Origin: a virus
Length of the DNA: 37,911 nt
IMG/VR virus record: IMGVR_UViG_3300037585_004335
Coordinates: 1 to 37,911 of that record
Strand: one strand, 5' to 3'
Shown one piece after another: positions 3,197 to 37,034 of the stretch. The notes under the pieces are model-generated. The model was not told where the DNA came from and made no database searches. It saw nothing but the letters and a program-made list of their open reading frames with translations. Positions within the stretch are counted from its first letter, which is position 1. Each line of letters begins with the position of its first letter. The translations under genes were made by a program, and so were the position numbers.

Positions 3197-3676
3197 CTAT
3201 ATTAAATCCGGATTAATTATAACTGTTGCACCTGTAGTAACTGTCTCTTTTGATGCAGTACTCATTGCTAATAATAAATATTCATGGACCCCAGTACCTA
3301 GGTCTTGTGATAGTGATCTAACTGATGCTATACCGTTTTGAGTTCCAGTATAATCTGATACTTCTTCCCATCCAATTGTTCCTAATTTTAAAAATGTAAA
3401 ATGATTAAATGCGCCATTTGAAGCAGATGTTGATAATAAAATTTCATGTTGGCCACTTGAGCCAGTAATCCAATTACCATATGTTGGTGGATTTGATAAT
3501 GATTCAGACCCAAAAAATAATTTAACGCCAGATGTTCCAAAATTTAAATTAGAAAGTTGAGAACCATTCCCAAAAAATGTACCATTAACAGTACCGATTG
3601 TAGTTACGCCAGATTTAAAATTTGCAACTGAGCCAGAATGTGAAAATGATCCAGAAAATTTATGAATACCTGCCAT
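3197..3676 (-). CDS. Short fibre-associated protein, paralogue of the next gene's N-terminus
   Basis: 159 residues. The start ATG overlaps the stop of the upstream fibre gene by one base (TAATG), and its own stop abuts the ATG of the downstream fibre. It begins MAGIHKFSGSFSHSG and carries Gly/Ser-rich beta segments, FFGNGSQLS and GVHEYLLLAMS. These align by eye with the first ~200 residues of the next gene, so this is a free-standing copy of the N-terminal head domain of that fibre. It may be an adaptor or collar subunit joining fibre pieces, or the remains of a shortened fibre gene. No enzyme motif is seen. The function is inferred only from homology to its neighbour and from context. Confidence 0.75.
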   Translation of the reverse strand: MAGIHKFSGSFSHSGSVANFKSGVTTIGTVNGTFFGNGSQLSNLNFGTSGVKLFFGSESLSNPPTYGNWITGSSGQHEILLSTSASNGAFNHFTFLKLGTIGWEEVSDYTGTQNGIASVRSLSQDLGTGVHEYLLLAMSTASKETVTTGATVIINPDLI

Positions 3677-5820: not shown

Positions 5821-8800
5821 TAGCTTGTACTCACATTAATTTCTTGAATAGGCGCAGGATCGCCTTTATATCTGACTATCACATAAAATTGATTATCAGA
5901 TGTGTCTAAATATTGACCAACTGTGTTATCTATACTAAAATTATATATGTTATTTGTTTTTACAATTGCGCCCGGGCAACCATATAAATCTATTGCAGTT
6001 GTAAATGGATTCTTATGATTATCTTGACTTATATTTTCTTCGATTGCAGAAAAATCTTTTGTTGGATCATATATACGAGCTCTACTCAACGCCACATTGT
6101 TACCGCTACCATTTCCAGAACTTTCAAATAATATTGCACATGCTATGCTATTATTTGCAGTTGATGTCCAGTTAACTAAAGATTTATTACTCAAATGAAT
6201 ATCCACTTGACTTCTAGCGCTACTTACTTGAAATTTTCTTATATAAAATCTATAATCAGTTGATGATGCCGTTAAACTATCTGTTGTAAACCAATATCCA
6301 TAACTACCTATAGGATTAACTAAATATCCAGGCTTAACTTGTAAATCGTATTGACCTATTACTACATCACTATTATCATTTGTTTTATATGTACCCGTTG
6401 TAAATAATGTTCCGTTAAATGCTTGCACATTATCTGCTAATACAATTCGATTGTCTTCACCAGTAAATGTTTCTGAGGAATCTTGTAATGTATTTGAATC
6501 ATATCCTTGTGCACGACTATAAATTGCCATACTTCCGGAATCGGCGTTTTGGCCAAATCTGCCGGCGTTATATAATTCTGTAGTTGATGTGGTAGAATAT
6601 ACATTAGTTCCTTTCCAATTTGTACCTTTTGCTTTGAAAACTAAATCATAATTTAAACTTTGATTTGATGATCGATTTTGACTTACATTTTCAATATTTG
6701 AATCTAATTCAAATTCGAATGAAGAACTAGCAACTGCTATATCTGAGATATGAGGTATTGTGTTATTAGCTCTTTTTGTTGTTTTTGTTTTGTCAATTAC
6801 ATATATATGATCACCCGGAGTATGATTTATTCCACCGGTGTCTATATAAACTGATGTATTGGTTAAACTAACAGATCCTACATTATTCCATTCATCAGTT
6901 GATCTATAATTGTATAATACTGTAGTAGTTCTTCCATATCCAGGATCAAATGATTTGCTAACTTGAGAATCAAAATCTATTGTATAATCACATGTCAATA
7001 TGTAAGGAGCTCCGCTCAAACTTCGTGATGTTGCAGAAAATGATGCGATATTCAATGCCTGTGTTACAACTACGGTTGGATTTGCATTATCAGTAATATC
7101 ACTTGGCAATCCACTAGTATACAAATAAAATTTAGTATCTGAATTGCCACCATTTTTAAAAGTAAAGTCTGACTGACCTCCGTATTTTAATCCTACCTTT
7201 ATGTCATGAGTTAAATAATATCCACTTGCAGAAATACTGTTTTCATTTTGAGAACCGCCTGTATAATATCTACCAGATATAGTACCAGCCACATTATTGA
7301 AATCACCATCTTGGTATGCAGATGGAATCACTGCAGGCTGTGAAGTTACAATCTTTGTTAATGTTAATCCATCTCCAGAAGTTCCAAAACTAGACTGCTC
7401 AAAATCTTTAAATGATGCGGTATGGAATGTTGAATTTTTGTCTGGTGTTGTATCTGCGTAATTATCACTAAATGAATGTGATGCAATTACCTTTACATTA
7501 TATGCAACAGCTGCTCCATTTGATAATTGTCCTAATCCGAATGTAGTTCCTGCCGATGAGACATTAGTAGTACCAGATGTATTTGCAGATACAGTAAAGT
7601 TGTTAGTATCAAAAGTAGCATTAGTTAGTATTGGACTTGGTATTCTACTGGCATAGCTTCCGTGAAATGGATTTGTACCAGTATCATTTCCAAATGTTCC
7701 TCTATCAGATGCTTGCAACCAACCTTTTAATTCTAAATAATTTTGTACAGCTCTGTAAGATGCGGTTTCGCTGAAGTCTATAAATGCTGATGCGGTCCAA
7801 TGTTGTGATAGTCTTGCATTTTCACATGCAGATCCTAACACTCCATTAAGCAATGCACTTTTTGATGTAGTAGAACCTTGAGTATGATTAGTAGTTACAG
7901 ATCCATATGTTTTTGTATTAGGCGCAGCATCTGCTACATTTAATGAATGGCTCAGCGCACCAGCAATAAATCTTAATATTTCGGAAACATCAGTATTTGC
8001 ATTAAAATTATTGAAATAAGATCCTTGTAAATTTTCTCCCCAGTTATTTGAAGTAGGCTTTCCTACATTTATATTTGATGCAGATATATTACCTGAAGCA
8101 GTTATATGACCTGATCCGCTTAATAAAAGTGACCCAGTTATTACTGCTTGAGCCGGAGAATTTGTTAATGAATCAGATCCAGAATATGGAAATCCTACTC
8201 CGGTACCGCCGCCGCCTGCAATTGCTAGCGCTAACGAAGCTGACGTAAATATACCGCCTCCAATGGATGCAGACATCATTGATATATTACCACTTGCACT
8301 TATTCCACCAGAAGCAGTTACATGATTAAATATACGATTAGATGACGTTGATTCTAAATTTGTTACACGAGTACTAAACGAAGATGATGGTGCTACAAAT
8401 GAACCTGATATTGATGTTGAAGTAAAAGGTAAAAGTTCTTTTCCGTTCAATTGAATACTACTACCCGATAAAAATATCGATCCAGTAAATTGATGACTAT
8501 CATCTGATGTATTACCAAATTTAGTTGATCCTGAAAGTTGTTGTGTTACTAAATTAGTTACAGATGATGATATAATATATTCTTCTGCAGTTAATCTACC
8601 AGTAACAGTTAAATCACCAATTAATGTATCTGTAGTATTTAGTAAATATGAGCTAGTTTTGGCAGTTAATGATGATATATCAGTTTCATTAGTTGTAATT
8701 CTGGATTGTAATGAATGGCTAGCTGCAGTAAATGCTCCAGATATCTCAGATTTAATTTGAGCGGACCCAGATATCAATGTGTTGCTTAATTCTAATTCTG

Positions 8801-9836
8801 CTGTTGTTAATCGCGATTGCAATGAATGACTTGCCGTTGTTAATCGTGATTGCAATGAATGACTTGCTTCAGTAAAGGAACCTGATATTGATGCACTAGT
8901 TAAACTTCTTATTAAATTAGCATTTACACCTAACGATTCAGATATTGATGTTGCAGTAAACGGTAAAAGATCTTTACCATTCAATTGTATACTACTACCT
9001 GATAATAATATTGATCCTGTAAATTGATGTATATCATCGGATGAGTTACCTATACGCGATGAACCGCTAGCAAATATGACAGATGATGTCACAAATTCTG
9101 TATGAAATTCTTCTGCAGTTATTTTTCCAGTAACGGTTAAATCACCGGTTAATGTATTAGTAGTATTTAATAAGTATGAACTGGTTGCAGCAGTTAATGA
9201 TGATATATCAGTTTCGTTTGATGATACGCGTGTGCTAAATGAACTGCTATCAGTTTTTAAATTGGTTACGCGAGTTGAAAAAGATCCACTATCAGTTTTT
9301 AATGCAGTTACTCGATCTTCAAAAGATCCGCTATCTGTTTTTAATCCAGTTACACGCGTTGAAAATGATCCACTATCAGTTTTTAAATTGGTTACGCGAG
9401 TCGAGAATGATCCACTATCTGTTTTTAAATCTGTTACGCGAGTTGAAAATGAACCACTATTAGTTTTTAAATTGGTTACACGAGTTGAAAATGATCCACT
9501 ATCTGTTTTTAAATTGGTTACACGAGTTGAAAATGATGCTGATGGTGCTACAAATGCTCCAGATATTTCAGTAGCAATTTGGGCTGAACTGGATAGAGCT
9601 CCGTTATGTAAATGTTCTTCTGTGGCTTCTAACGTTGCTAAACGTGTTGAAATAGAAGCACTAGGTGCATAGAACGCCCCGGATATTGCAGTCTTATGTG
9701 CAAATGATGCAGTTTGATCACCTGTAACAATTGCTATAGCAGAACCAGTCCCATCAGCAAAAACACCGCTTTCAACTTGTACAAGTTTTTGGAATGATTC
9801 CTGTATTCTTTGGCCGGATAAATTATCTAGAGCCAT
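5820..9836 (-). CDS. Large tail fibre protein with 14-residue coiled-coil array
   Basis: 1338 residues; start ATG 9836 has an AAAGG site upstream, and the stop overlaps the next ATG (TAATG). Residues 1-45 (MALDNLSGQRIQESFQKLVQ) look like a helical anchor. Residues 101-210 are seven full copies plus one partial copy of SFSTRVTNLKTDSG. Residues 220-470 hold two copies of a module with TASHSLQSR, LTGDLTVTGK/R and HQFTGSI, and a poly-Gly hinge follows. The C-terminal ~750 residues are a unique region rich in Asn, Ser, Thr and aromatic residues without obvious repeats, likely the receptor-binding part. It ends without an S74 chaperone motif, although a separate chaperone gene exists at 28307. Host-recognition fibre by composition and context. 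Confidence 0.85.
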   Translation of the reverse strand: MALDNLSGQRIQESFQKLVQVESGVFADGTGSAIAIVTGDQTASFAHKTAISGAFYAPSASISTRLATLEATEEHLHNGALSSSAQIATEISGAFVAPSASFSTRVTNLKTDSGSFSTRVTNLKTNSGSFSTRVTDLKTDSGSFSTRVTNLKTDSGSFSTRVTGLKTDSGSFEDRVTALKTDSGSFSTRVTNLKTDSSSFSTRVSSNETDISSLTAATSSYLLNTTNTLTGDLTVTGKITAEEFHTEFVTSSVIFASGSSRIGNSSDDIHQFTGSILLSGSSIQLNGKDLLPFTATSISESLGVNANLIRSLTSASISGSFTEASHSLQSRLTTASHSLQSRLTTAELELSNTLISGSAQIKSEISGAFTAASHSLQSRITTNETDISSLTAKTSSYLLNTTDTLIGDLTVTGRLTAEEYIISSSVTNLVTQQLSGSTKFGNTSDDSHQFTGSIFLSGSSIQLNGKELLPFTSTSISGSFVAPSSSFSTRVTNLESTSSNRIFNHVTASGGISASGNISMMSASIGGGIFTSASLALAIAGGGGTGVGFPYSGSDSLTNSPAQAVITGSLLLSGSGHITASGNISASNINVGKPTSNNWGENLQGSYFNNFNANTDVSEILRFIAGALSHSLNVADAAPNTKTYGSVTTNHTQGSTTSKSALLNGVLGSACENARLSQHWTASAFIDFSETASYRAVQNYLELKGWLQASDRGTFGNDTGTNPFHGSYASRIPSPILTNATFDTNNFTVSANTSGTTNVSSAGTTFGLGQLSNGAAVAYNVKVIASHSFSDNYADTTPDKNSTFHTASFKDFEQSSFGTSGDGLTLTKIVTSQPAVIPSAYQDGDFNNVAGTISGRYYTGGSQNENSISASGYYLTHDIKVGLKYGGQSDFTFKNGGNSDTKFYLYTSGLPSDITDNANPTVVVTQALNIASFSATSRSLSGAPYILTCDYTIDFDSQVSKSFDPGYGRTTTVLYNYRSTDEWNNVGSVSLTNTSVYIDTGGINHTPGDHIYVIDKTKTTKRANNTIPHISDIAVASSSFEFELDSNIENVSQNRSSNQSLNYDLVFKAKGTNWKGTNVYSTTSTTELYNAGRFGQNADSGSMAIYSRAQGYDSNTLQDSSETFTGEDNRIVLADNVQAFNGTLFTTGTYKTNDNSDVVIGQYDLQVKPGYLVNPIGSYGYWFTTDSLTASSTDYRFYIRKFQVSSARSQVDIHLSNKSLVNWTSTANNSIACAILFESSGNGSGNNVALSRARIYDPTKDFSAIEENISQDNHKNPFTTAIDLYGCPGAIVKTNNIYNFSIDNTVGQYLDTSDNQFYVIVRYKGDPAPIQEINVSTS
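8173..8302 (-). repeat. Near-identical 130-nt block shared with the adjacent fibre gene (copy 2)
   Basis: Partner of 4358-4490, lying in the 1338-residue fibre gene. It encodes the same hinge with one fewer glycine. Both copies are in the same orientation, so recombination between them would delete or duplicate about 3.8 kb of fibre sequence. Confidence 0.85.
9207..9536 (-). repeat. 42-nt tandem repeat array (14-residue coiled-coil units)
   Basis: Seven complete 42-nt units and one partial unit encode SFSTRV(T/S)xLKTDSG. The units differ by scattered substitutions (N/D/G/A at one position, one unit with ED for ST). The same unit occurs near 5095-5225 and 4535-4612 in the next gene. The 14-residue period is two heptads with V/L at core positions, consistent with a trimeric coiled-coil shaft whose length could change by slippage. 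Confidence 0.9.
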
Positions 9837-11540: not shown

Positions 11541-13274
11541 CTATATAGTATCTAAACCATGTACCATTATTTTACCATAGAATTCAGGACGAACCATTTT
11601 CTTAGCATAACGAGTCATAACACCTTTACGTGGCGTAAAGTTATTAGGATCATATACTAATGGAGTCATGATTAATGGAATATATGGAGAATAAACAGCA
11701 CCTGTTTCAAGGAACTGAGTACCACGGTATCCCATTAATATGGTATTTTCAGTCATATAAGGGTTTTTATAAACTTGGTATCTATTATTAATAGCACCAA
11801 CTTTTTGTACACCCATTGCAAACTGAGCTTTATCTCCATCTGTATCAGCAGCATATCCTGGAATAGATTCTAGAATAGTTGCAATAGTTGGAGAACAAAC
11901 AAGGAAGTTAGCTCCACCTCTTAAAGTTAATTGGTGAATTTTATTCGAAACTTTTTGTACTTTAGTACCTAAAGTTTGGAACCATGTTCCTTGGTTATAT
12001 GCTTGCGCATTTGCATTACCTTGTTGGAATGCAGTTGTACCAGCATCATACTCCCAACCAATTTTAGCAGACCATCTTTCAACAGTTTGAGCATTTTCTT
12101 GTAACATGCCTAAAATTTCTAAATCAATTTCTTGCGAAACGTATTCAGATAACATGCTAGTTAATTCTGCTTCAGCATCAATTGAATGGTAAGCATTCAA
12201 GTCTTGAGCAAATTCTGGAGACCAAACAGCTTTCAACTTACGAGTTTTGGCTACAATGGCTTCAGATCTCATTTCAAGATTGATTTCTGGAATATCTAGT
12301 TTTGACCCATCATCATTTGTATTTGTAGAAAGTACATTTGAATCTTCAAAGTCACCTCTAGATACATCAGTTGGTTGTTTATGGTAAACAACTCTTACAT
12401 CAGAAACCGCTGGTGCTGCAGCTGTTTTAACTAAGAAATAAACTCTATCACTAGTTGCACTTGTTCTAGTAAATTCCGGATACATTTCTGTAATACCAGT
12501 AGCATTAACATTAAATGCTCTAACACCATTAGTATCAAAGTTTGGAATTAAATCTTTACCAACTGAAAGTACTTGGAATGTAGATCCAACACCGGATGCA
12601 GAAAATTCCGAATTAAAGTTAGTAAATATATTGAATCCAGCCTGAGTCATTGGAGTATAAGCAGCTGTATCATTAGCAAATTCATTTGATGAATTCCATG
12701 ATCCAGTACAGAAAGATGCATCTGCTTCACCATCTTTGGATGAATTCAATGCAGATGATGTAACATCGTTAATGGTATAACCAAAACGACCAGGTCCATA
12801 AAGACCTTCAGTTGCAGTTGCAGTTCCACGACCTGCATCAGTAACACCGAATACAGAATCATTTTGTGAAGTTCGACCAGCATTAGTCAAGAAATCATTA
12901 CCACCAGCTGTTCCAGTTGGTGCTTGTCCCTGACCTGTACCATATTTAAAGTCTAGATAAAATACAAGACCTGATGGTAAGTTCATTGGTTGTACAGATA
13001 CAAAATCTTTAGCTGCAATTTCAGCAAAAATACGACGAACTAATGGAAGAGCTACCCCTGACCATTCTTCACCGCTAGCTGCAGTATTTGTAGAATTTGC
13101 TTCTGTTACTAATTGCTTGGCTTGGTTCTCTAAAAGAACGGCCATGCCTTTTCTTTCAACCTCATTTGATAATCCTTCCAATAGACCGGTTTTTTCCCAC
13201 TTGCGTTCAAGTGCGATGGCCGCGGCATTTTGGTTGGCATTTCCATTTTGAGGTAATAATGAATTTATATTCAT
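11541..13274 (-). CDS. 23: Major capsid protein, T4 gp23 family
   Basis: 577 residues, slightly longer than T4 gp23 (about 520). The N-terminal ~60 residues are the typical helical delta piece (AIALERKWEKTGLLEGL). The prohead protease probably cleaves after VTE at residue 58, then the HK97-fold body begins (EEWSGVALPLVRRIFAEIAA). The C-terminus (RKGVMTRYAKKMVRPEFYGK) is the highly conserved gp23 tail. A loop with Gly, Thr and Asn at about residues 115-240 is likely a surface insertion. A good AAGGAAAG site precedes the ATG, 13 nt after the scaffold stop. The gene is co-transcribed with the scaffold and followed by a strong terminator, as expected for the most abundant virion protein. No gp24-like vertex gene lies in this window. 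Confidence 0.97.
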   Translation of the reverse strand: MNINSLLPQNGNANQNAAAIALERKWEKTGLLEGLSNEVERKGMAVLLENQAKQLVTEANSTNTAASGEEWSGVALPLVRRIFAEIAAKDFVSVQPMNLPSGLVFYLDFKYGTGQGQAPTGTAGGNDFLTNAGRTSQNDSVFGVTDAGRGTATATEGLYGPGRFGYTINDVTSSALNSSKDGEADASFCTGSWNSSNEFANDTAAYTPMTQAGFNIFTNFNSEFSASGVGSTFQVLSVGKDLIPNFDTNGVRAFNVNATGITEMYPEFTRTSATSDRVYFLVKTAAAPAVSDVRVVYHKQPTDVSRGDFEDSNVLSTNTNDDGSKLDIPEINLEMRSEAIVAKTRKLKAVWSPEFAQDLNAYHSIDAEAELTSMLSEYVSQEIDLEILGMLQENAQTVERWSAKIGWEYDAGTTAFQQGNANAQAYNQGTWFQTLGTKVQKVSNKIHQLTLRGGANFLVCSPTIATILESIPGYAADTDGDKAQFAMGVQKVGAINNRYQVYKNPYMTENTILMGYRGTQFLETGAVYSPYIPLIMTPLVYDPNNFTPRKGVMTRYAKKMVRPEFYGKIMVHGLDTI

Positions 13275-15726: not shown

Positions 15727-16329
15727 TTAAAACTCCGTTATAATATCAGTAATAATTCGTTCAATATTAATAAATTTATTTGTTACATGATTTTTTGATT
15801 CATTTACTGGAGATAAAAATGCTCCTTGAGTAGATGGATTAGAAACAAAATCAAATGCAATTAGTTCAAAATCAGGTTGTACTTCTAATGTTTCATCGCC
15901 TTCTCTCATCACTTCTTTAACAGACCCCATTCCTCTTGAAGATATACCTAATCGTATACCTGATTTAAATAATTCTTTAAGTATATTCCCGGCCGGTGTT
16001 CCTAGTACTTCTACCTTACCTACCAAGTCATCTCCTTGCCATCCCATTTCCAATATGTTATGAGATACGTTTGCTAAGTTAACTACTGATGAATCGGGGT
16101 GATCTAATTCTCCTAAAGCTCTACGTTCTTTTATAAATGTACCAGCATAATTACTAGCTTCACGCATTAATGTTTCTTTTGGATATATTCTACCATTTTG
16201 ATTTTTAGACTCAGCTCTTTGTAAAACACCGTTAACGATTAACTTACCATTATTTTGAGTTAATGATTCATTTATTGATTGAGGTGAAACTTCAAACACA
16301 GAATAATCTACTAATAATTGTTTATTCAT
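15727..16329 (-). CDS. 21: Prohead maturation protease, T4 gp21 family
   Basis: 200 residues, close to T4 gp21 (212). It has the S77-type prohead protease fold: RAESKNQNGRIYP near 38-50, catalytic histidine in ELDHPDSS (His77), and catalytic serine in GISSRGMGSV (Ser130 or Ser131). It cleaves scaffold and capsid N-termini inside the prohead after (L/I/V)-x-E. A strong GGGGAAG site precedes the ATG. Unlike T4, four small genes including S21 separate it from the scaffold gene. Confidence 0.95.
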   Translation of the reverse strand: MNKQLLVDYSVFEVSPQSINESLTQNNGKLIVNGVLQRAESKNQNGRIYPKETLMREASNYAGTFIKERRALGELDHPDSSVVNLANVSHNILEMGWQGDDLVGKVEVLGTPAGNILKELFKSGIRLGISSRGMGSVKEVMREGDETLEVQPDFELIAFDFVSNPSTQGAFLSPVNESKNHVTNKFINIERIITDIITEF

Positions 16330-18174: not shown

Positions 18175-20058
18175 TTATTCCTCGATTAATTGCGATTCAT
18201 CTAACATTGTTCCGGAATCTTTATCTTGTTTTTCATTTAATAAAGTCTGTTTTATAACGTTAGATGATTTCATCGTATCGATCAAGGAATTAATTTGTAT
18301 GTTTTCAGTACTCAATGGCGATCCTCCGCGGTAGTCATGCTGTAGAGGTGATTTGTCAGTTGATAATGATTTACCTAATGATTTAATAGCTAACGGATCT
18401 CTTCCATGAGGCGAATCATGCGTGCCCCATGATTGATGTTCTGGCGGTCTACCAGTACCTGCAACATGTTCTTGTTCTTGTCCAGGTAATAAACCATCTT
18501 TATTAGCAACATGCATTGATGCAATATCATGAGGCGTACCAAATGATTGATTAGTCTTTTTAGGATCATTACCTTCTGACTTAATTTGTTCTTTACGGAA
18601 GTCTTGTTTTAAATCTTCTATTACTTGTTCTTGTTCTGCTAACCATTCATCTTGACTCAATCCGAATACATTTTCATATATCCATCTTTGAGAAAATAAA
18701 GTTGATTCTTTCATATTAGTTGCTAGACCAATTTTACTTTCCAAAACTTCAATTTTTTGTTTTTCATATACAATTGATGGATTAGTCAAGGATAATTCAA
18801 AATTCACTAATTCTGCATCTTTATATCCTTGAGTATATAAATGCACAATTGCAATCTTAGTTAATTCAGATGTAAATATTTTTTGTATACGTTCAATTGT
18901 TCTTGCAAATCTAACATCTTCTGCCGCTAATGTTGCTTTACCTTCAACACCTTCATCATACCCTAAAAACGCTTTTGGTATTTTTAATGCAGCAAATAAT
19001 TTATTTTTTAAATAATCAATATCTTCAATCTGACCTTCAGATGATAATCCAGGTAATGCTTCTATAGATGTTCCAGACTCACCGCCTCTCACTGGCATAA
19101 AATAATCTTCAATCATATTCTGCATATTAAATTTAAGATTATAATCTCCTGTTTTCTCATCGATATAAGGAATCTTTTTCATTTTATTAACAATTCCTTG
19201 AATATGATTATCAACTTCTGCTGGAGGTATATTACCTACATCTATTTTAAATATTCTACGTTCAGGGGCTCTCATAATTCTATGAATTAACATTGCATCT
19301 TCCATGAGAGTTAATTGTTTAAATATTTTTCGAGCGGGTTCGATCATTGATTTACCATATGGTAAGAAATTCGTATCTGATAACATTCGGAAATGTGCTA
19401 TCTCAAATGATTGAAATTCTTGCATATTTCCTTCGCCTTTATAAGAAGCAAAATTATGAGAGCCTCCGCCATGAGTATTATTTAAAGTAAATTTATGTGC
19501 ATATGGATTTTCTTCATCAAATCCTTCTTCTCTCATCACTTCATATGCAGATAATGGCATTACATTTACAATTCCTACTTCTTCTTCAATATCTAAATGT
19601 AAATAAAAATCACCATATTTACATGCGTTACGAATCCATGGCCATAAATTATAATCTACATTTAATATATCATAAAATAAGTTATGAAGTATTTTTCGTA
19701 TATCATCGTTTGGTGATGTAATAGTTAATGTATCACCGTCTGCATCTTTTACTGTAGATTCATCTGCATAAATATCCAGAGCGGATGATAAAATAGGGTC
19801 CGTATCCATTGCTTCATAATCTGTGAATAATTCTATTTTAGATGTATGAAATGTTTGGTTTTGATTATATGTACCATATCCTGGCATGCCTCTATGAACG
19901 CCGGAAAATCTATCAACATATCGTTTATTAGACATGTTTCCAGTTGATTGTAAACGATTTGTATCAACAGCTTTTAATCTATTTTTTGAGATTCTACGTA
20001 CAACTACATTAGTTGCAAATAATCTACTTAACCGTGCTCTTAACGAAGTATCTGCCAT
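18175..20058 (-). CDS. 20: Portal vertex protein, T4 gp20 family
   Basis: 627 residues, somewhat longer than T4 gp20 (524). Hallmarks are DPILSSALDIYADESTVKD near residue 85, a FRMLSDTNFLPYGKSMIEPA segment near 225 followed by the LMEDAMLIHRIMRAPERRIF block, and KIPKAFLGYDEGVEGKATLA near 365. The C-terminal ~120 residues are polar and Gly/Asp/His-rich, and look like a disordered extension beyond the usual portal end. Twelve copies form the DNA channel and the prohead initiation site. The gene follows gp17 directly with a 22-nt gap; the tail genes 18 and 19 that intervene in T4 are absent here. Confidence 0.96.
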   Translation of the reverse strand: MADTSLRARLSRLFATNVVVRRISKNRLKAVDTNRLQSTGNMSNKRYVDRFSGVHRGMPGYGTYNQNQTFHTSKIELFTDYEAMDTDPILSSALDIYADESTVKDADGDTLTITSPNDDIRKILHNLFYDILNVDYNLWPWIRNACKYGDFYLHLDIEEEVGIVNVMPLSAYEVMREEGFDEENPYAHKFTLNNTHGGGSHNFASYKGEGNMQEFQSFEIAHFRMLSDTNFLPYGKSMIEPARKIFKQLTLMEDAMLIHRIMRAPERRIFKIDVGNIPPAEVDNHIQGIVNKMKKIPYIDEKTGDYNLKFNMQNMIEDYFMPVRGGESGTSIEALPGLSSEGQIEDIDYLKNKLFAALKIPKAFLGYDEGVEGKATLAAEDVRFARTIERIQKIFTSELTKIAIVHLYTQGYKDAELVNFELSLTNPSIVYEKQKIEVLESKIGLATNMKESTLFSQRWIYENVFGLSQDEWLAEQEQVIEDLKQDFRKEQIKSEGNDPKKTNQSFGTPHDIASMHVANKDGLLPGQEQEHVAGTGRPPEHQSWGTHDSPHGRDPLAIKSLGKSLSTDKSPLQHDYRGGSPLSTENIQINSLIDTMKSSNVIKQTLLNEKQDKDSGTMLDESQLIEE

Positions 20059-20066
20059 ATTTTACC

Positions 20067-20080
20067 TATATAAATAAATA
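20067..20080. promoter_or_regulatory. Intergenic ATATTTAT element, site 4, between gp17 and gp20
   Basis: ATATTTATTTATAT on the gene strand, starting at the gp17 stop codon and ending nine bases before the portal ATG. The core repeats partly (TATTTATTTATA). A weak GGTAAA lies between it and the ATG. Confidence 0.4.
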
Positions 20081-21658
20081 TTAGAGTAACCACTTTAAAT
20101 CAGAATTTTCACTATCTCCTGACTTCCATTGCCATTCTTTTGGTGTTTGTTGAGTAGCAGAATAAACACCTTGAGATTTTCCAAAGTGTCCTAATGCTTT
20201 TCTATTTAAATCCATACCTTGTTGTTGTAATCTTAATGCTGTATCTCTCATCCATAGTCCGGTAGAGAATGACATTACTAAATCATCATTATAGCCTCGA
20301 GCCGCTTCTGCTCTATGGCCTAACCATACAAATGTAAATAACTCATCCACTAATCGTTTTGAATGAACTATCGGCGTTTTATCTCTAAAGTATGTTTCTA
20401 GTTTTGAAATTACTAATGGACGTGTTCTAGAAGTCATTGAAAATCCAGGAACTGTTTTTGATTTACCTTTTAAATCATATCCTTTACGTAATTGAACATC
20501 TTCATCAACATACCCATCTTGTTTATATGAATAATATAAATTTGAATAACCTTTATCTAAAGCAACTTGTATCGATGCCCATCCAATATTAGCATTTTCA
20601 ATTACAAGTAATGCATTATTATATTCTGTTGCAACAGCAATTAACATGTTCCCATATTCAGTAGTTCCTATCTTACCTTTATATTCAGCAACTTGTTGAC
20701 AAGATTCAATATCGAAGACGTGAAATGCTGAATAATCAGTAGAATCACCTCTAGCGACGTCCGCTACTACCATATACTTTTTATTATAATCAGCATATTC
20801 CCATATCCAGAAATTGGAATCAAATCCTCTTTTTTCTATAGGATCTTTAACATGTGTATCAGAATACCATTGCAATATATTACCATCGACAACGGTATGA
20901 CCAGATGATATAAAGTCACAATCACATTCTTGTGCCGCACCTTTTTCTCCTAATAATTCAGTTTGTTTAATACGCCATGCTTCATCACGATCTGGATGTA
21001 CTGTCCAATGTAATTTTATTGTGTTAAATTCTCCACCTGCTTCCGCATCTACCCACATTCTATGAAACCAATTACCTACACCATTTGGAGTTGATAATGC
21101 AATACAATCACCACCAGTTGCTAATGTTTGTTGTGCCGCTGTCCATATTTCATCAATTTTATCGATAAAAGCTGCTTCATCAAATATCAATAATGATAAT
21201 GCTTCAGATCTACCGGCATCGCCTTTAGAAGAAATTGCTTTAATTTGTGATCCATTTCCATAACGTAATGATAATTTGTTATCTTCTAATGTTTTACCTT
21301 TTAACCAATTTGGTAAATTTTCATTCATTACTCGAACTTTGGTTACAAGATTTTTTGCAACGTCCTGTTTTGTTGCAATTACTAGAACATTAAAATCAGA
21401 TCGGAATATCATTTTCCATAAAGCATACCCTGCTGTTAATGTTGATATACCTAATTGTCTAGATTTTAAAATAATATTATATCTATTATCTTTTAATTCT
21501 TGTAATGATTTTTCTTGAAATGGATATAAGTTAAATAACATTTTTCCGCGCGTAGGATGTTGTATTACACAATACTTGCGCATAAAATGTATAGGGTCTT
21601 GTGAACACCGTTTGTATTCATCACCTATAATTTCTTTAAGAGATTTTTTAACTGCCAT
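20081..21658 (-). CDS. 17: Terminase large subunit, T4 gp17 family
   Basis: 525 residues, shorter than T4 gp17 (610). The packaging ATPase has a Walker-A-type loop SRQLGIST at 66-73, Walker B LLIFDE at 156-161 and a coupling motif ALSTPNG at 187-193. The RNase-H-like nuclease has MVVADVARGDSTDYSAF (Asp300), IENANIGW (Glu354) and YNDDLVMSF (Asp458/459), so all three acidic centres are kept. It cuts concatemers and pumps DNA into the prohead through the portal. The N-terminus lacks the long extension of T4. No recognisable small terminase (gp16) precedes it; the coiled-coil gene at 22075 is a positional candidate. Confidence 0.97.
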   Translation of the reverse strand: MAVKKSLKEIIGDEYKRCSQDPIHFMRKYCVIQHPTRGKMLFNLYPFQEKSLQELKDNRYNIILKSRQLGISTLTAGYALWKMIFRSDFNVLVIATKQDVAKNLVTKVRVMNENLPNWLKGKTLEDNKLSLRYGNGSQIKAISSKGDAGRSEALSLLIFDEAAFIDKIDEIWTAAQQTLATGGDCIALSTPNGVGNWFHRMWVDAEAGGEFNTIKLHWTVHPDRDEAWRIKQTELLGEKGAAQECDCDFISSGHTVVDGNILQWYSDTHVKDPIEKRGFDSNFWIWEYADYNKKYMVVADVARGDSTDYSAFHVFDIESCQQVAEYKGKIGTTEYGNMLIAVATEYNNALLVIENANIGWASIQVALDKGYSNLYYSYKQDGYVDEDVQLRKGYDLKGKSKTVPGFSMTSRTRPLVISKLETYFRDKTPIVHSKRLVDELFTFVWLGHRAEAARGYNDDLVMSFSTGLWMRDTALRLQQQGMDLNRKALGHFGKSQGVYSATQQTPKEWQWKSGDSENSDLKWLL

Positions 21659-22997: not shown

Positions 22998-23501
22998 TTA
23001 TTGTATACCTTGGCGTAATTTTATTACCAATCGTTTTTTGGCAGCATCTCTTAAACCTAATCCATTTATCAATTGTATTACATAATCTACTTGCTGTAAT
23101 GCTGGTTTTTGAGCTAGTACATTTTTTAATTGTACAAAAGCTTGAGTTTTATCTAGTCTTGCTTGTCTACCTGCTAATGCACCGGTCATCTCTCCATTAG
23201 ATTCTGCTACTGGTTCCTGTGGAGCCGCTTCAGGGGCTGCATTTAAATCAGTTTGTTTTAACATCATTACTAATGCATTTTTTACAGCTGTACTACCACC
23301 TGATATTGCATCAATTACTTTGACTAAGCCGGCGGCTTGTTGTCGCGGTGATCCTTGAGCTAACGCTCTTTTAAGCATTTTTACTCCAGCATTTTTTTCT
23401 ATTTTACTAGTCTCACGTTCTACACCAGTAGTAACGTCAGCTTCTTTTAGAGATTTACGAATTTCTTTTCGTATAGTTTCTCTTAAAATTGATTCTTTCA
23501 T
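22998..23501 (-). CDS. Unknown helical protein, Ala/Gln/Lys-rich
   Basis: 167 residues. It starts with an amphipathic basic helix (MKESILRETIRKEIRKSLKE) and ends with a similar one (GLRDAAKKRLVIKLRQGI). The centre has two short related blocks (KMLKRALAQGSPRQQAAGLV near 41-60; QLKNVLAQKPALQQVDYVIQ near 123-142), so an internal duplication is likely. A linker rich in Ala, Pro and Glu joins them. An AAAGGAC site precedes the ATG. Function unknown. Confidence 0.75.
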   Translation of the reverse strand: MKESILRETIRKEIRKSLKEADVTTGVERETSKIEKNAGVKMLKRALAQGSPRQQAAGLVKVIDAISGGSTAVKNALVMMLKQTDLNAAPEAAPQEPVAESNGEMTGALAGRQARLDKTQAFVQLKNVLAQKPALQQVDYVIQLINGLGLRDAAKKRLVIKLRQGIQ

Positions 23502-23538: not shown

Positions 23539-25995
23539 TTACTTAGTAAAACCTTTATCCATTGCAAAATTTGCTCTACTAAATTCTATTCGGTCAACAA
23601 ATTTGACTCCTTGACCTATATGATCGACTGCTACATACCCTTCTGGTGCTGTAACAACTAATCCGCCTTTACCATCATCTTTAAAATGTTTAGTGATTGA
23701 TATGGCATTATTATATTTTCTAACAAAAATTAATTTTGCTTCTGCTAATAATTTTGATACTGTAAATATATTTAAAATGTCTTGTTTTCTTTCATTAAAC
23801 ACTGACATTCTTTGTTGTTTAGCTAATGTAGCTTTTTCAATACCACGATCTGATTTTAATTTTGCGATCTTTTTATCAATACGCTGTTCTAACCATTTCT
23901 GGAATGCTTTAAACGATATAGCCGCATTATCAACAAATTGTCCGGTTTTTATTTCTGCATTAAGATAAATGTTTAATTCTGCACTTGGAAGATTATCATA
24001 ATTTATTTTTATTGAATCTGCCTTTTTAATTAACGCAGCTACTTCTTTCGCTTCCTTTGCTGTTAATGTTACTATACCAGTCGTATCTTTAAAATATGCA
24101 TCATCAAACCAAACATTAGGATTACGTCTTAATCCACTTACATCAGCACCAAATGTAGCTCCACCTTGTAATCCATTATTATATGTTGTATGAAATACTA
24201 TACCTATTTTTGCAGCTGCTACTTTACGTCCGATATCAGAATTTGATTCCACTGCATATGTTATTGTGTTTGGACGAAATGATAAATGAGGTTCGCCATC
24301 TATATTTGTTGACTTAACCATACTTTTATCAAACATGAAATCCCCTTGTAATATATTTTTTATACCCAATGCCGGCAGGTGTTGTAATGCAAATTTTAAT
24401 TTAAATACTAAACCAGGAGCTTCTCCATGATTCATTTCTATATCTTCCATTGTATAATTAATTTTAGGTACTTTATTCATTACAGACTTTGTTCCTACGA
24501 AGAATTTACCATTATCTGGATTGATTCCGGCAAACACTGCAGGAGCCCCGTCCCATTTAACTGTAGTATCAATTTTTGAATTTGAATTACCTTTAAGATT
24601 TTTTAACAATTCTATTAAAAATGATTTAGCAGTTTTATATCCTTTAGCGCCCTGAGTTAATATTAATTCTTCTAAATGAGTTAAATGTGTATTTGCTTTA
24701 GCTTCAGTTAATAATTCTCCAAGTTGGTTACTCCACCATTCTTTTGTTAATTCTTGGTCTTTTGGAGGTATACGTAATCTCATTGCTGATCTTCCATTAA
24801 TTAGTAAATCGCCCTTTTCATTCCAACCAATTGTTTTTACAACTACTTTTTTATTTTTAAATCTACCCATCATTACAGTATCACCTATATTAATAGGAAG
24901 ATTTATATCTTCTCGTAATCCGGTTGGTTTTAATTTTTCACCTTTACTCGATGCTACCGAATCGCCGGCACCTAAAAAGTCCATAAATTTATATCCAACT
25001 TGTTGTGCAACTTTATTAATATATTTACGCCAAGCATTATATGCTGGATTACCTTTCATATCACGCATATAATCTGTACCAGAATTTTTTGCTCCTTTTA
25101 CACCGGTTGGAAAATAAGATACTGATAATGGTGGACCATCTGGAAAATTTGTATTATGGGTTTCAATAGGTGTATTAGGCATTAGGTAATTTACAACTTG
25201 ATATCCTAATCGAGTAGCCATTGCCGATGTTTGTTTATTATATGTGGATTGGTTACCGTAAAAATATCGTGGACCATCATCTACATCATGTTTGCCGCCG
25301 GCGGTAATACTTCCTTCTTTTAACAATTGTGTAATATCATATTTAGATATAAATGATTCTATCTGTTCTGTTTTTATTGCGGAAAACTTATCACGTAACA
25401 TTGTATAAACTGATTCATCATAAAATCCCATGACATCTTTAAATGTATCCGGATCTGCAGTTGCTAATACTTTTCTTAATGTAGTTCCTGACATTTCATC
25501 AAACCCAGGAATTGCAATTTTAACATGAGGCGCGACTACTAAATATCCATGTTGAGTATATGGTTGTAATGTATTTTTATTTTGTTCATATGATTGAAAA
25601 TATCCTGGTGAACCGTCTTTTTTTGTTCCTATACGAAACCTAGGGTCTTCCTGCATATCTTTTGCACCTACTGCAAATAATACTGCAGTTGTTTCTGGAT
25701 CATATTTACTTGTTATTTCAGTGGCTTGATATGGGTTCTTTACTTGTACTACATTTCCTATACCATGCTTAAAAATTACTTTACGTTTTTCTTTGAAATT
25801 TAAAGGTGATTTAGGTAACTTAACTTTATCTGATGTAGCAATATATGTATTAGATTTGCCAAATTTTGCAGCTAATTTTTTATATGTTTCCGCATGATGA
25901 CGTCCCATTGGTTGAAATCGTCCGGGATATATCACAACAATTGTTTTGATATTACTTTCAGTTATAACTTGTTCTGCTAACCATTCTCCTAACAT
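23539..25995 (-). CDS. Fusion of NMN-adenylyltransferase-like and DNA/RNA-ligase-like domains
   Basis: 818 residues. Residues ~17-205 form an HxGH-type nucleotidyltransferase: IYPGRFQPMGRHH (20s-34, with GRHH in place of HxGH) and the MSGTTLRK variant of the ISSTxIR motif at 168-175, as in NadM/NadR enzymes. Residues ~230-430 are a linker region of unknown fold. Residues ~435-818 look like a covalent nucleotidyltransferase of the ligase superfamily: motif I KWDGAPA with candidate nucleophile Lys480, motif III LQGDFMFD at 549-556, a IIIa-like GIVFHTTY at 598-605, motif IV PEGYVAVD at 784-791, and motif V VKFVDRIEFS at 797-806. Related ligase-like proteins occur, I believe, in T4-like cyanophages as unassigned families. 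The combined substrate is unknown; NAD or RNA ends are possibilities. It is a late gene between fibre and packaging clusters. Confidence 0.85.
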   Translation of the reverse strand: MLGEWLAEQVITESNIKTIVVIYPGRFQPMGRHHAETYKKLAAKFGKSNTYIATSDKVKLPKSPLNFKEKRKVIFKHGIGNVVQVKNPYQATEITSKYDPETTAVLFAVGAKDMQEDPRFRIGTKKDGSPGYFQSYEQNKNTLQPYTQHGYLVVAPHVKIAIPGFDEMSGTTLRKVLATADPDTFKDVMGFYDESVYTMLRDKFSAIKTEQIESFISKYDITQLLKEGSITAGGKHDVDDGPRYFYGNQSTYNKQTSAMATRLGYQVVNYLMPNTPIETHNTNFPDGPPLSVSYFPTGVKGAKNSGTDYMRDMKGNPAYNAWRKYINKVAQQVGYKFMDFLGAGDSVASSKGEKLKPTGLREDINLPINIGDTVMMGRFKNKKVVVKTIGWNEKGDLLINGRSAMRLRIPPKDQELTKEWWSNQLGELLTEAKANTHLTHLEELILTQGAKGYKTAKSFLIELLKNLKGNSNSKIDTTVKWDGAPAVFAGINPDNGKFFVGTKSVMNKVPKINYTMEDIEMNHGEAPGLVFKLKFALQHLPALGIKNILQGDFMFDKSMVKSTNIDGEPHLSFRPNTITYAVESNSDIGRKVAAAKIGIVFHTTYNNGLQGGATFGADVSGLRRNPNVWFDDAYFKDTTGIVTLTAKEAKEVAALIKKADSIKINYDNLPSAELNIYLNAEIKTGQFVDNAAISFKAFQKWLEQRIDKKIAKLKSDRGIEKATLAKQQRMSVFNERKQDILNIFTVSKLLAEAKLIFVRKYNNAISITKHFKDDGKGGLVVTAPEGYVAVDHIGQGVKFVDRIEFSRANFAMDKGFTK

Positions 25996-33872: not shown

Positions 33873-33884
33873 ATATAAATATTA
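33873..33884. promoter_or_regulatory. Intergenic ATATTTAT element, site 7
   Basis: TAATATTTATATGAAAT in gene direction. The leading TAA is the stop codon of the nuclease-ATPase gene, so the element starts at the stop. The fibre ATG follows 17 nt later after a GAGG site. Confidence 0.4.
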
Positions 33885-36800
33885 GGTATAGGCAATTTCA
33901 GAATATCCGTTAACTTTTTTAATTTCTACCAATTTATCTACAATGTCACGCATTGCATCAATATGGGATATACACATAATAAATCCAAATTGTGATTTTA
34001 AATAATCGAATAACATATACATTGAATTTAAATTATCAGAATCTAAAACACCGAAGCCTTCATCTATAGCTAAGAAATTTGGTCTAGGTAAATTTGATAC
34101 ATTAATTAATGAAGTACGAATTGCTAAAGATGAAATAAATTTTTCCATTCCGGAAGTTAATTCTAATGGCCAATAATTATCATCATCATAAACAATATAA
34201 GCATTTATATTCTTACCATCAGTATCCATTACCATAGTAAAGTCAACTATCTGATTAAGTATATTATTTATTTCAGATTCTATTTGTGGTAATGCTTTTG
34301 ATATTAAATGATATGGTACACCATCACGATTAACTGCTTTTTGATAATATTCATAAGCTTGATATTGTTGTTCTAATGTTTTTAATCTATTAATACCGGT
34401 ATTAGCATCTTCACGACTTTTTTCAGCCATTTTTAATTTACCTGATAAATTTAATAATTTAGAATCTAATCCGTTTAATTCAATATTTACAGTTGTTATT
34501 TCATCTCGTATTTCTTTAATTTCAGAATTTTTCTTTTTATTGAATTCAATATTATCTTTTTGTCGTTTTGCTTTTGTTAATTGTTTTTTATAGTCAGAAA
34601 TTTTAACAAACAATGTTTCAATATCCCATTCACATTTACTATGTTCATGTTCTATATTAGTTAATATTTGTTTCCATTTATTAACATCAGACTTAAATGC
34701 ATTTAAAATATCTACTTTATATTGCGGGTCATCTTTTAATAGATCGGCTATTTTATTTCCAATATCATCTATATCAAATAATATTTGTTGTTCTTCATCA
34801 ATTAATCTTGGTAATAAATCTGCAACTTGTTTAGTTTCATGAAGCCATGGATTAGCCATACAAAATTTACATTCTGGGTCCCATTCATGTTTATCTAATT
34901 TAGATACCATTTTTTGAGCATGTTGAATTTTAAGTTGTTTAAATTTTAAATCGTTATTTAATTTAACAACATCTGATTTATATGTTTTAATATTTTCTAA
35001 TTGTGCTACTAATTTATCTTCATCAACTGAATCTATTTTAGATTGTGTATTATTTATTAAATCTTTTTTAGATACTATCATACCAGCTTTTTGATCTCTA
35101 TCTTGTATATATTCTTGTAACTGTATTTTAGCTTGTTCAATTTTATTTGATATAGCTTCTGGTTCTAATGTTCCATCAACTTTTTTTATTTCCTTTGTCA
35201 TAACAAAAATGATATCATTTAAATTTGATTTCATTTCTTCATGTTCAGTTTTATCTATTTTCATTTGTTCATATGAACCGGTAAATTGAGATATAGTATC
35301 TTTTGCTGATGATAAATCTGTTGAAAAATCTTTTCTTTTATATTCACGAATAAGGGCTGCAGTTTCTCTAATATCTTCGTGTCCGATTAAATATTGTTTT
35401 TCAAATATATCTAAATCTAAAAATTGAGATAAAAGATCTTTACGTTCTCTTTGTGTTTTATCAATAAACCCAGTATTATTATTTTGTAATGATAATGCGG
35501 TTAAAACAAAATCTTCATATGAACCTAAATATTGCTTTATACTTTTATTTGTTGAATCTCGCTGTTCGCCGTTTAAACTTTCATGATTACCAGATTCATC
35601 AATCCGCCAAAAATCTACATTTAATTTAACATGGCCATTACTTTGTTTCTTTGCTTTACGTTCAATAAAATATGTATATTTTCCTAAATCGAATTCAAAT
35701 TTACATTGGAAATTAGATTTTTTATTATTTAATACATGTGCTGCTTTTTTTGTTCGCGAACATTTATCAAAACAACAAAATGCTAATGCATCTAACAACG
35801 TTGATTTACCAGAAGCATTTGGAGCAAATAATCCATATGTTCCATTCATATTTGAAAAATCTATAGAATTATTTGTACCATAACTAAACATGTTCGAAAA
35901 CTCAAAACGTTTTGGCGTCCATGTTATATTTCTAGTTAATGTACTTGTTGGTAATTTACTATGTACTTGTCTATTAATATACCTAACAGTATCTAATAAT
36001 TCATCATCTAAAGCATATTCATCTGTTAAATAATCTGTAATTACTTTATTTTGCCATTCAACATCACGTATATTACCAAAATTAATTTTATTTTTTGAAT
36101 CAGTAGTATTCAATGCATTAACTTTTTGTAATGCAATATCCTGTACTTTATATTGAGATTTAACATCTGCAATAATACGTTTTAATGTTGCTGAATCAGT
36201 ATCTTTTACCTTAAATCTTAATCTAGGACGTAAAGGTATTTTATCGTTAGGATTTGTTATTTTACCAGCATCTACATGAAATGTATAATATCCATAATCA
36301 TTTTCAATCTCTACAAATTCACAATTTTTAGACTCTAAATTCCATACCATTATTCCATGACCTAAAGCTTCACCATGATTTTGTTGAATTAATGATCCAG
36401 CATATGCAACTGTTTTATCATCATCTAAAAATTGCGGCTTATGAATATCTCCTAATAAAACTAAATCATGTCCTTTAAATATGTCAGTCGTTACATGAGT
36501 ATTACTTAATACAAATCCGGCATCTGTTGATGCATTATGCACTGAGCCATGATGTAATGCAATCTTATAATCTCCTTCAAAACCATCTGCTTTTATATAA
36601 TCAACCGGTTTATCGAACACCGACATTACGTTAAAGTGTACTCCGGCCATACTATATACACCGTTGTCTTTAAGATAGTGTAAGTTTTGATGATTCAAGG
36701 CTTTAACAATAGGAGATAACGCATCTAAGCGATAGTTATTATTTAGGTTACAATCATGATTACCAGTAATTACTATAGTCGGTGCTAAATCTGCTAATCG

Positions 36801-37034
36801 TTTAAAAAAATCTGATACTACTGATATTAATTCCGGAGACATATCTGTTTTAGCATGTACAATATCTCCAGCCACATATATTAATGATTCCGGTGTTTTT
36901 GTTTTTTTAATATATGAATATAAACGTTTAAATACTAATCTATATTCTTTATGACGTTTAACATTTCTAACATGTACATCAGCAATGTGAAATATCTTAT
37001 CAATCTTCTCTATTCCAATATCTATATCGTGCAT
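33882..37034 (-). CDS. SbcD/Mre11 nuclease and SbcC/Rad50 ATPase fused in one chain (T4 gp47-gp46)
   Basis: 1050 residues. Residues ~10-330 are a metallophosphoesterase with ADVHVRN (Asp19, His21), GDIVH (Asp57), GNHD (92-94), ALHHGS (161-162) and GDIHKP (His198), so all nuclease motifs are present. Residues ~375-1045 are the SMC-like ATPase: Walker A APNASGKST at 404-412, Q-loop ALSLQNNNTGF, a coiled-coil arm, zinc hook Cys722-x2-Cys725, return coil, signature ELTSGMEKF at 958-966, Walker B FLAIDEGF at 987-994, D-loop VLD and the final His in CISHIDA. In T4, gp47 and gp46 are separate proteins that resect DNA ends for recombination-dependent replication. Here one uninterrupted reading frame covers both, nuclease first. 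The start overlaps the primase gene by 13 nt. Confidence 0.95.
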   Translation of the reverse strand: MHDIDIGIEKIDKIFHIADVHVRNVKRHKEYRLVFKRLYSYIKKTKTPESLIYVAGDIVHAKTDMSPELISVVSDFFKRLADLAPTIVITGNHDCNLNNNYRLDALSPIVKALNHQNLHYLKDNGVYSMAGVHFNVMSVFDKPVDYIKADGFEGDYKIALHHGSVHNASTDAGFVLSNTHVTTDIFKGHDLVLLGDIHKPQFLDDDKTVAYAGSLIQQNHGEALGHGIMVWNLESKNCEFVEIENDYGYYTFHVDAGKITNPNDKIPLRPRLRFKVKDTDSATLKRIIADVKSQYKVQDIALQKVNALNTTDSKNKINFGNIRDVEWQNKVITDYLTDEYALDDELLDTVRYINRQVHSKLPTSTLTRNITWTPKRFEFSNMFSYGTNNSIDFSNMNGTYGLFAPNASGKSTLLDALAFCCFDKCSRTKKAAHVLNNKKSNFQCKFEFDLGKYTYFIERKAKKQSNGHVKLNVDFWRIDESGNHESLNGEQRDSTNKSIKQYLGSYEDFVLTALSLQNNNTGFIDKTQRERKDLLSQFLDLDIFEKQYLIGHEDIRETAALIREYKRKDFSTDLSSAKDTISQFTGSYEQMKIDKTEHEEMKSNLNDIIFVMTKEIKKVDGTLEPEAISNKIEQAKIQLQEYIQDRDQKAGMIVSKKDLINNTQSKIDSVDEDKLVAQLENIKTYKSDVVKLNNDLKFKQLKIQHAQKMVSKLDKHEWDPECKFCMANPWLHETKQVADLLPRLIDEEQQILFDIDDIGNKIADLLKDDPQYKVDILNAFKSDVNKWKQILTNIEHEHSKCEWDIETLFVKISDYKKQLTKAKRQKDNIEFNKKKNSEIKEIRDEITTVNIELNGLDSKLLNLSGKLKMAEKSREDANTGINRLKTLEQQYQAYEYYQKAVNRDGVPYHLISKALPQIESEINNILNQIVDFTMVMDTDGKNINAYIVYDDDNYWPLELTSGMEKFISSLAIRTSLINVSNLPRPNFLAIDEGFGVLDSDNLNSMYMLFDYLKSQFGFIMCISHIDAMRDIVDKLVEIKKVNGYSEIAYT

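Follow-up and report, generated by a model that had tools for sequence, protein, structure and literature searches.

A putative head-packaged, protease-processed polyprotein joining a nucleotidyltransferase to a ligase-like DUF6267 domain in T4-like phages

The locus and its fusion protein

The window analysed here, the whole 37,911-base stretch of the viral record IMGVR_UViG_3300037585_004335, from a marine phage, carries a T4-type head block on its minus strand, with genes for the portal, large terminase, major head protein and prohead protease (Table 1), which agrees with the late, virion-associated context proposed in the initial annotation of this DNA. On the same strand, a single open reading frame (ORF) running from position 25995 to 23539, with a Shine-Dalgarno-like AAAGGA upstream of its ATG, encodes an 818-residue fusion protein in which an amino-terminal nucleotidyltransferase (NT) domain, a middle region and a carboxy-terminal DUF6267 domain follow one another. 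Every part of this protein is under purifying selection, with dN/dS against three relatives of 0.09-0.17 in the NT domain, 0.21-0.39 in the middle and 0.14-0.26 in DUF6267. The next gene (22998-23501, minus strand) starts MKESILRETIRKEIRKSLKEADVTTG, contains L-x-E sites and possibly encodes another head-packaged protein. Elsewhere on the minus strand, a single 1050-residue ORF (33882-37034) joins a metallophosphoesterase-like region (residues 10-202) to an SbcC-like one (residues 283-1048), so that counterparts of the T4 recombination subunits gp47 and gp46 appear to be fused, and two fibre-like ORFs (3676-9836) hold many copies of a LKTDSGSFSTRVTN-type repeat. A PADLOC search returned no match.

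Table 1. Features of the fusion protein and of the surrounding head block (window coordinates; residues are those of the 818-residue protein).
Feature	Residues	Position	Strand	Details
ORF of the fusion protein	1-818	23542..25995	-	
Putative capsid-targeting propeptide, MLGEWLAEQVITE	1-13	25957..25995	-	LAE (6-8), ITE (11-13)
HIGH-superfamily nucleotidyltransferase (NT) domain	17-214	25354..25947	-	phrog_395; model; Foldseek
Putative protease site LKE, NT/middle boundary	225-227	25315..25323	-	
Middle module, DVDDGPRYFYGN	228-359	24919..25314	-	Conserved in relatives; L/I-x-E absent from core
Putative protease site LRE	360-362	24910..24918	-	
SH3-like beta module, INLPINIGDTVMMGRFKNKKV	363-412	24760..24909	-	Beta strands in model, low confidence
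Linker ending LGELLTEA, putative internal targeting and cleavage peptide	416-432	24700..24750	-	LGE (425-427), LTE (429-431)
DUF6267 (PF19782), predicted ligase-type nucleotidyltransferase domain	432-818	23542..24702	-	
KWDG, motif I with K480	480-483	24547..24558	-	K, D and G invariant in 85 homologues
QGD, motif III-like	550-552	24340..24348	-	Invariant in 85 homologues
EGYVAV, motif IV	785-790	23626..23643	-	E, G and V invariant
KFVDR, motif V	798-802	23590..23604	-	K and R invariant
Major head protein		11541..13274	-	phrog_138, E 5e-73
Head maturation (prohead) protease, candidate processing enzyme		15727..16329	-	phrog_207, E 2.7e-53
Portal and large terminase genes (head block)		18175..21658	-	

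Domains of the fusion protein

The NT domain contains both of the motifs first read from its sequence, GRFQPMGRHH (residues 25-34) and SGTTLRK (residues 169-175). The model of residues 17-208 (pLDDT about 90) has the HIGH-superfamily fold and matches PPAT, NaMNAT and NadM about equally well (Foldseek probability 1.00, E 8e-6). With the NadM/NadD/CoaD adenylyltransferases of that superfamily the domain shares its fold and the GRFQP...SGTxLR motifs; unlike them, it falls under every curated family cut-off and has GxHH in place of HxGH (or TxGH) in all 48 aligned relatives, among which G31, H33 and H34 are invariant. The second motif, of the S-x-T-x-x-R type, is present as SGTTLR, with G170, T171 and R174 invariant and S169 nearly so. 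As GxHH replaces HxGH, the domain can represent a divergent subfamily at most, and, judged by its model, it is a HIGH-superfamily nucleotidyltransferase of such a subfamily, a minor correction to the initial description as NMN-adenylyltransferase-like.

The middle region of some 200 residues, first described as of unknown fold, is not one fold but two successive parts. A variable module (about residues 228-360) yielded no confident structure model and a single weak phage match; it is followed by the SH3-like module, a relative of which lies inside a separate gene of phage HTVC008M (L018:9161-9673). In three related loci (L008, L009 and L011) the middle module is swapped for another between NT and DUF6267 that bears HELEH, a zinc-metallopeptidase-like motif without Pfam support.

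The carboxy-terminal domain is a full-length member of DUF6267 (PF19782), matching profile positions 1-376 of 376 over residues 435-814 (E 7e-96; 322 bits against a cut-off of 27), and of phrog_455, whose profile spans DUF6267 together with a cytidyltransferase region. Databases label the family ‘function unknown’, whereas its motifs and predicted structure lead us to propose a ligase-type enzyme. The motifs I, III, IV and V already recognised in this chain follow one another in the order of the KxDG superfamily, beginning with the lysine of KWDG, and K480, D482, G483, Q550-G551-D552, E785, G786, V788, K798 and R802 are invariant in all 85 homologues from viral contigs, so that the loss of Lys480 or of motifs III-V that would have spoken against the assignment was not seen. 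In having KxDG, a motif III-like element, EGxV and a lysine-containing motif V in order, the domain resembles ATP-dependent RNA and DNA ligases and capping nucleotidyltransferases (T4 Rnl2 and the RM378 and Naegleria RNA ligases), from which it differs in having QGD rather than the usual glutamate motif III, in a long helical insert preceding motif IV and in the absence of detected sequence similarity.

An AlphaFold model of DUF6267, computed from the window and viral-contig sequences (pLDDT 87.6, pTM 0.84), likewise has ligases as its nearest folds in the PDB: DNA ligases and entries for eukaryotic RNA ligase fill the first seven places, and the best 20 consist mostly of ligases or a capping enzyme, though the matches are weak singly (best E 0.086, TM about 0.2, poor superpositions). 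Among the predicted viral structures of BFVD, the top matches are cytidyltransferase-like or uncharacterised phage proteins, followed by an annotated RNA ligase of Agrobacterium phage Atu_ph07 (E 7.5e-4, probability 0.99) and the RM378 RNA ligase (E 3.6e-3). Taken with the motifs, the model makes a ligase-type catalytic fold likely for DUF6267, in keeping with the fold that had been anticipated for this half of the protein.

With an NMN-adenylyltransferase-like domain and a ligase-type domain on one chain, the two could be linked through NAD, the first regenerating NAD from the NMN left by an NAD-using ligase-type domain, or countering host NAD depletion. The NadM-like GRFQP, weak NadM-type matches and NadM structures among the fold matches accord with such a role, and phage NAD salvage against NADase defences has been described (PMC9503650). 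The NMN/NAD specificity originally suggested was not supported on closer comparison, however: the domain scores 19.5 bits against the 449 of the curated NCBIfam NMNAT (NadM) cut-off, PPAT and NaMNAT fold matches are as good or better, the first histidine of HxGH is absent, and no motif matching the Ia-like amino-terminal domain of NAD-dependent ligases was seen. We regard an NAD-linked function as rather improbable.

Recurrence of the fusion

A search with the NT domain by itself identified 80 viral loci, in 76 of which a KxDG domain lies in the same ORF: DUF6267 in 24, a second family (EKTDGQN) in 22 and a third (VKIDGVNAS) in 30. Two of the remaining four run off the contig end, and the other two (L150 and L152) have the second-family domain upstream of NT, cut by the contig end in L150. 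NT is thus fused to a KxDG domain, in either order, in 78 of 78 evaluable loci, and both the pairing of two nucleotidyltransferase-type domains on one chain and the recurrence of that pairing across phages are borne out. Deposited genomes with the fusion are those of Microcystis phage Mel-JY01 and a 484-kb uncultured phage. DUF6267 comes first in S-PM2 and in five further loci (L027-L030 and L129), and a different nucleotidyltransferase subtype stands in front in L031 and L032. In L032 (4042-7173), one ORF of 1044 residues holds DUF6267 together with a nucleotidyltransferase and a segment resembling HAD phosphatases. In the S-PM2 record (AJ630128, L019:7947-9726) DUF6267 is split over two ORFs, and BFVD holds an intact 591-residue S-PM2 DUF6267-cytidyltransferase fusion.

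DUF6267 relatives occur in 467 phage records among those searched, mostly from cyanophages, in which DUF6267 adjoins replication genes and not the head block; in the Kyanoviridae the NT and DUF6267 genes are separate but close together. The second and third KxDG families are mutually homologous (HHalign 98.4%), and their conserved catalytic residues are of the same type. Sequence searches of PDB chains with DUF6267 and with these two families found nothing credible. In HHalign comparisons DUF6267 scored at the level of reversed controls against both families, Rnl2, Rnl1 and T4 DNA ligase; as the positive control, Rnl2 against Rnl1, failed too, this ligase test has no power. An apparent 87% deep-profile match between DUF6267 and the third family came from overlong segments that included neighbouring domains, and was gone after trimming.

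T4 IPIII takes part in head morphogenesis (PMC9026906), and an internal head protein that retained its enzyme folds for capsid assembly, genome condensation or DNA binding could be imagined. None of the 85 homologues departs from the catalytic lysine, aspartate, glutamate or arginine, and two other KxDG families show a like pattern; this indicates selection for catalysis and leaves a structural role very improbable.

Putative targeting peptides and protease-type sites

In T4, L/I-x-E marks the residues after which gp21 cleaves, and the amino-terminal ten residues of IPIII suffice for targeting to the head (PMC9026906). The window protein likewise begins with a peptide containing L/I-x-E triplets, LAE and ITE at residues 6-13, although its spacing differs from the T4 pattern (aromatic-4, aromatic-7, L/I-8, E-10) seen in the MKTYQEFIAEA with which T4 IPII and IPIII begin. 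Among 60 distinct relatives, 40 have an amino-terminal peptide with L/I-x-E, and nearly all others begin directly at the NT domain; freshwater relatives are without the peptide. Similar triplets recur between domains: in 25 of 26 relatives L/I-x-E lies at most 22 residues ahead of the middle module, in 18 of 18 it precedes the SH3-like module, and in 69 of 69 fusions [LIVM]xE is found no more than eight residues ahead of the KxDG domain, as against 12% of random 10-residue windows, counts that are not independent given a short motif and related sequences. Inside the domains L/I-x-E is scarce, with 0.21 per 100 residues in the NT core, 0 in the middle core and 0.47 in DUF6267, compared with 1.19 in other ORFs, and 7 of the 10 triplets in the window protein fall in the amino-terminal peptide or at domain boundaries. 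Boundary enrichment combined with core depletion is the pattern that would be expected of a protease-processed polyprotein.

Stand-alone DUF6267 proteins start with T4-targeting-like peptides, for instance MYSFKQYLNEAK. The strict T4 pattern occurs in 19 of 71 of them and in 13 of 714 other ORFs (p 2e-13, a value that overstates independence because the sequences are related), and those 13 ORFs share loci with stand-alone DUF6267.

The initial annotation had supposed that the product or by-product of one activity feeds the other. A rival reading is a soluble bifunctional late enzyme, unpackaged, whose joined domains act in sequence (for example on NAD or an activated intermediate made by the first and consumed by the second) and in which L/I-x-E is ordinary linker. 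Both domains keep their catalytic motifs, fusions occur in both orders, as cooperation predicts, and the cyanophage genes stand beside replication genes. Such an enzyme does not account for L/I-x-E conserved at each boundary and depleted within domains, for stand-alone versions with capsid-targeting-like amino termini, or for related nucleotidyltransferases in virions, and we consider it unlikely. The conserved protease-type sites between domains suggest instead that the domains are separated before they act, and the proposed feeding of one activity by the other found no direct support.

Virion proteomes and gene neighbours

Published mass spectrometry places related nucleotidyltransferase proteins of other phages in the virion. 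The S-SM1 virion contains the ‘citidylyltransferase’ T4-GC190 (PMC3037559), which in the S-SM1 record is SSM1_190, a nucleotidyltransferase starting MKKFSAFLNEAE and adjoined by a DUF6267 relative, SSM1_189. The cytidylyltransferase ORF154, detected by three peptides, is present in the S-CREM2 virion, as is ORF156 (PMC10665884); ORF154 starts MKNFSSFLTEAD, and ORF156 (L218:9013-9726), two genes further on, matches a Pol-beta type nucleotidyltransferase domain (E 3e-4). DUF6267 itself is not reported in the virion data given in the available portions of either paper (PMC3037559, PMC10665884).

Neighbours of DUF6267 that also carry targeting-like peptides include a Zeta_toxin/PNK-like P-loop kinase, HAD phosphatase-like proteins and an adenylate kinase. 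Pnkp and Rnl1 of T4 form a nucleic-acid end repair set. A neighbouring kinase and phosphatase together with a ligase and a nucleotidyltransferase make up a set of the end-repair type, which is why we tentatively favour the repair of ends as infection begins, and reviews assign RNA-repair systems to counter-defence (PMC7824862, PMC9503650). Upstream of or near stand-alone DUF6267, three ORFs (L018:6878-7936, L020:6836-7921 and L220:1647-2480) have a D...SxK motif recalling PD-(D/E)XK nucleases and match no family.

A proposed head-packaged enzyme polyprotein

The reading that we favour, with a probability of roughly 55%, is that of a head-packaged, protease-processed enzyme polyprotein which delivers enzymes at infection; that the window protein is packaged and processed, considered apart from what follows, is probable. 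The amino-terminal and internal targeting peptides would bring the polyprotein into the prohead during assembly, where cleavage at the conserved L/I-x-E triplets by the prohead protease encoded in the same window would release a HIGH-type nucleotidyltransferase, a small module or two, and the ligase-type DUF6267. The fragments would then enter the host with the DNA and act prior to any phage gene expression. The ligase-type domain would most likely load AMP on Lys480 and hand this AMP on to an end bearing a 5'-phosphate, so that nucleic acid is joined or capped, probably in the repair of RNA (tRNA) or DNA ends against host defence nucleases, and the adenylyltransferase domain would form a dinucleotide-type product or prepare ends in the same pathway. 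A function in nucleic-acid end repair, suggested by analogy from the neighbours, is tentative. More doubtful still is the picture as a whole, in which T4-like marine and freshwater phages would carry in their heads an end-repair kit, made as a polyprotein from which the prohead protease releases an adenylyltransferase and a ligase belonging to a new family, and with which host-inflicted breaks would be repaired before phage gene expression.

Two known systems come close. The T4 internal head proteins (IPI-III and Alt, cut by gp21) are matched by the aromatic and L/I-x-E amino-terminal peptide of stand-alone DUF6267 and virion cytidylyltransferases, and include a head-carried enzyme in Alt, an ADP-ribosyltransferase; here, in contrast, several enzyme domains share a chain with sites between them, and the enzymes are nucleotidyltransferases. 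Polyvalent proteins of phages and conjugative elements (PMC5512222) likewise string numerous unrelated enzyme domains together on a single chain, with their genes close to those for virion proteins, and injection and sometimes proteolytic processing have been proposed for them, whereas processing here would fall to the prohead protease at L/I-x-E and not to a fused peptidase; DUF6267 was not found in the available passages of that paper. Capsid-targeted injected enzymes of T4, polyvalent proteins, DUF6267 and virion cytidylyltransferases are thus each already known separately. In the literature searched we found no mention of DUF6267, no report joining these pieces or placing DUF6267 among ligase-type enzymes, and none of a comparable prohead-protease-processed enzyme polyprotein. 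To the initial annotation the present analysis adds putative peptides for head targeting and processing, a further pair of KxDG families and mass-spectrometry evidence from virions.

If DUF6267 is a packaged ligase-type enzyme, a common gene of ‘unknown’ function gains a testable role, and attention is directed to the virion proteomes of cultivable phages, for instance S-SM1, S-CREM2, HTVC008M and Mel-JY01. It would also mean that enzyme polyproteins are among the substrates of the prohead protease in T4-like phages, and would point to a counter-defence already at work as infection begins.
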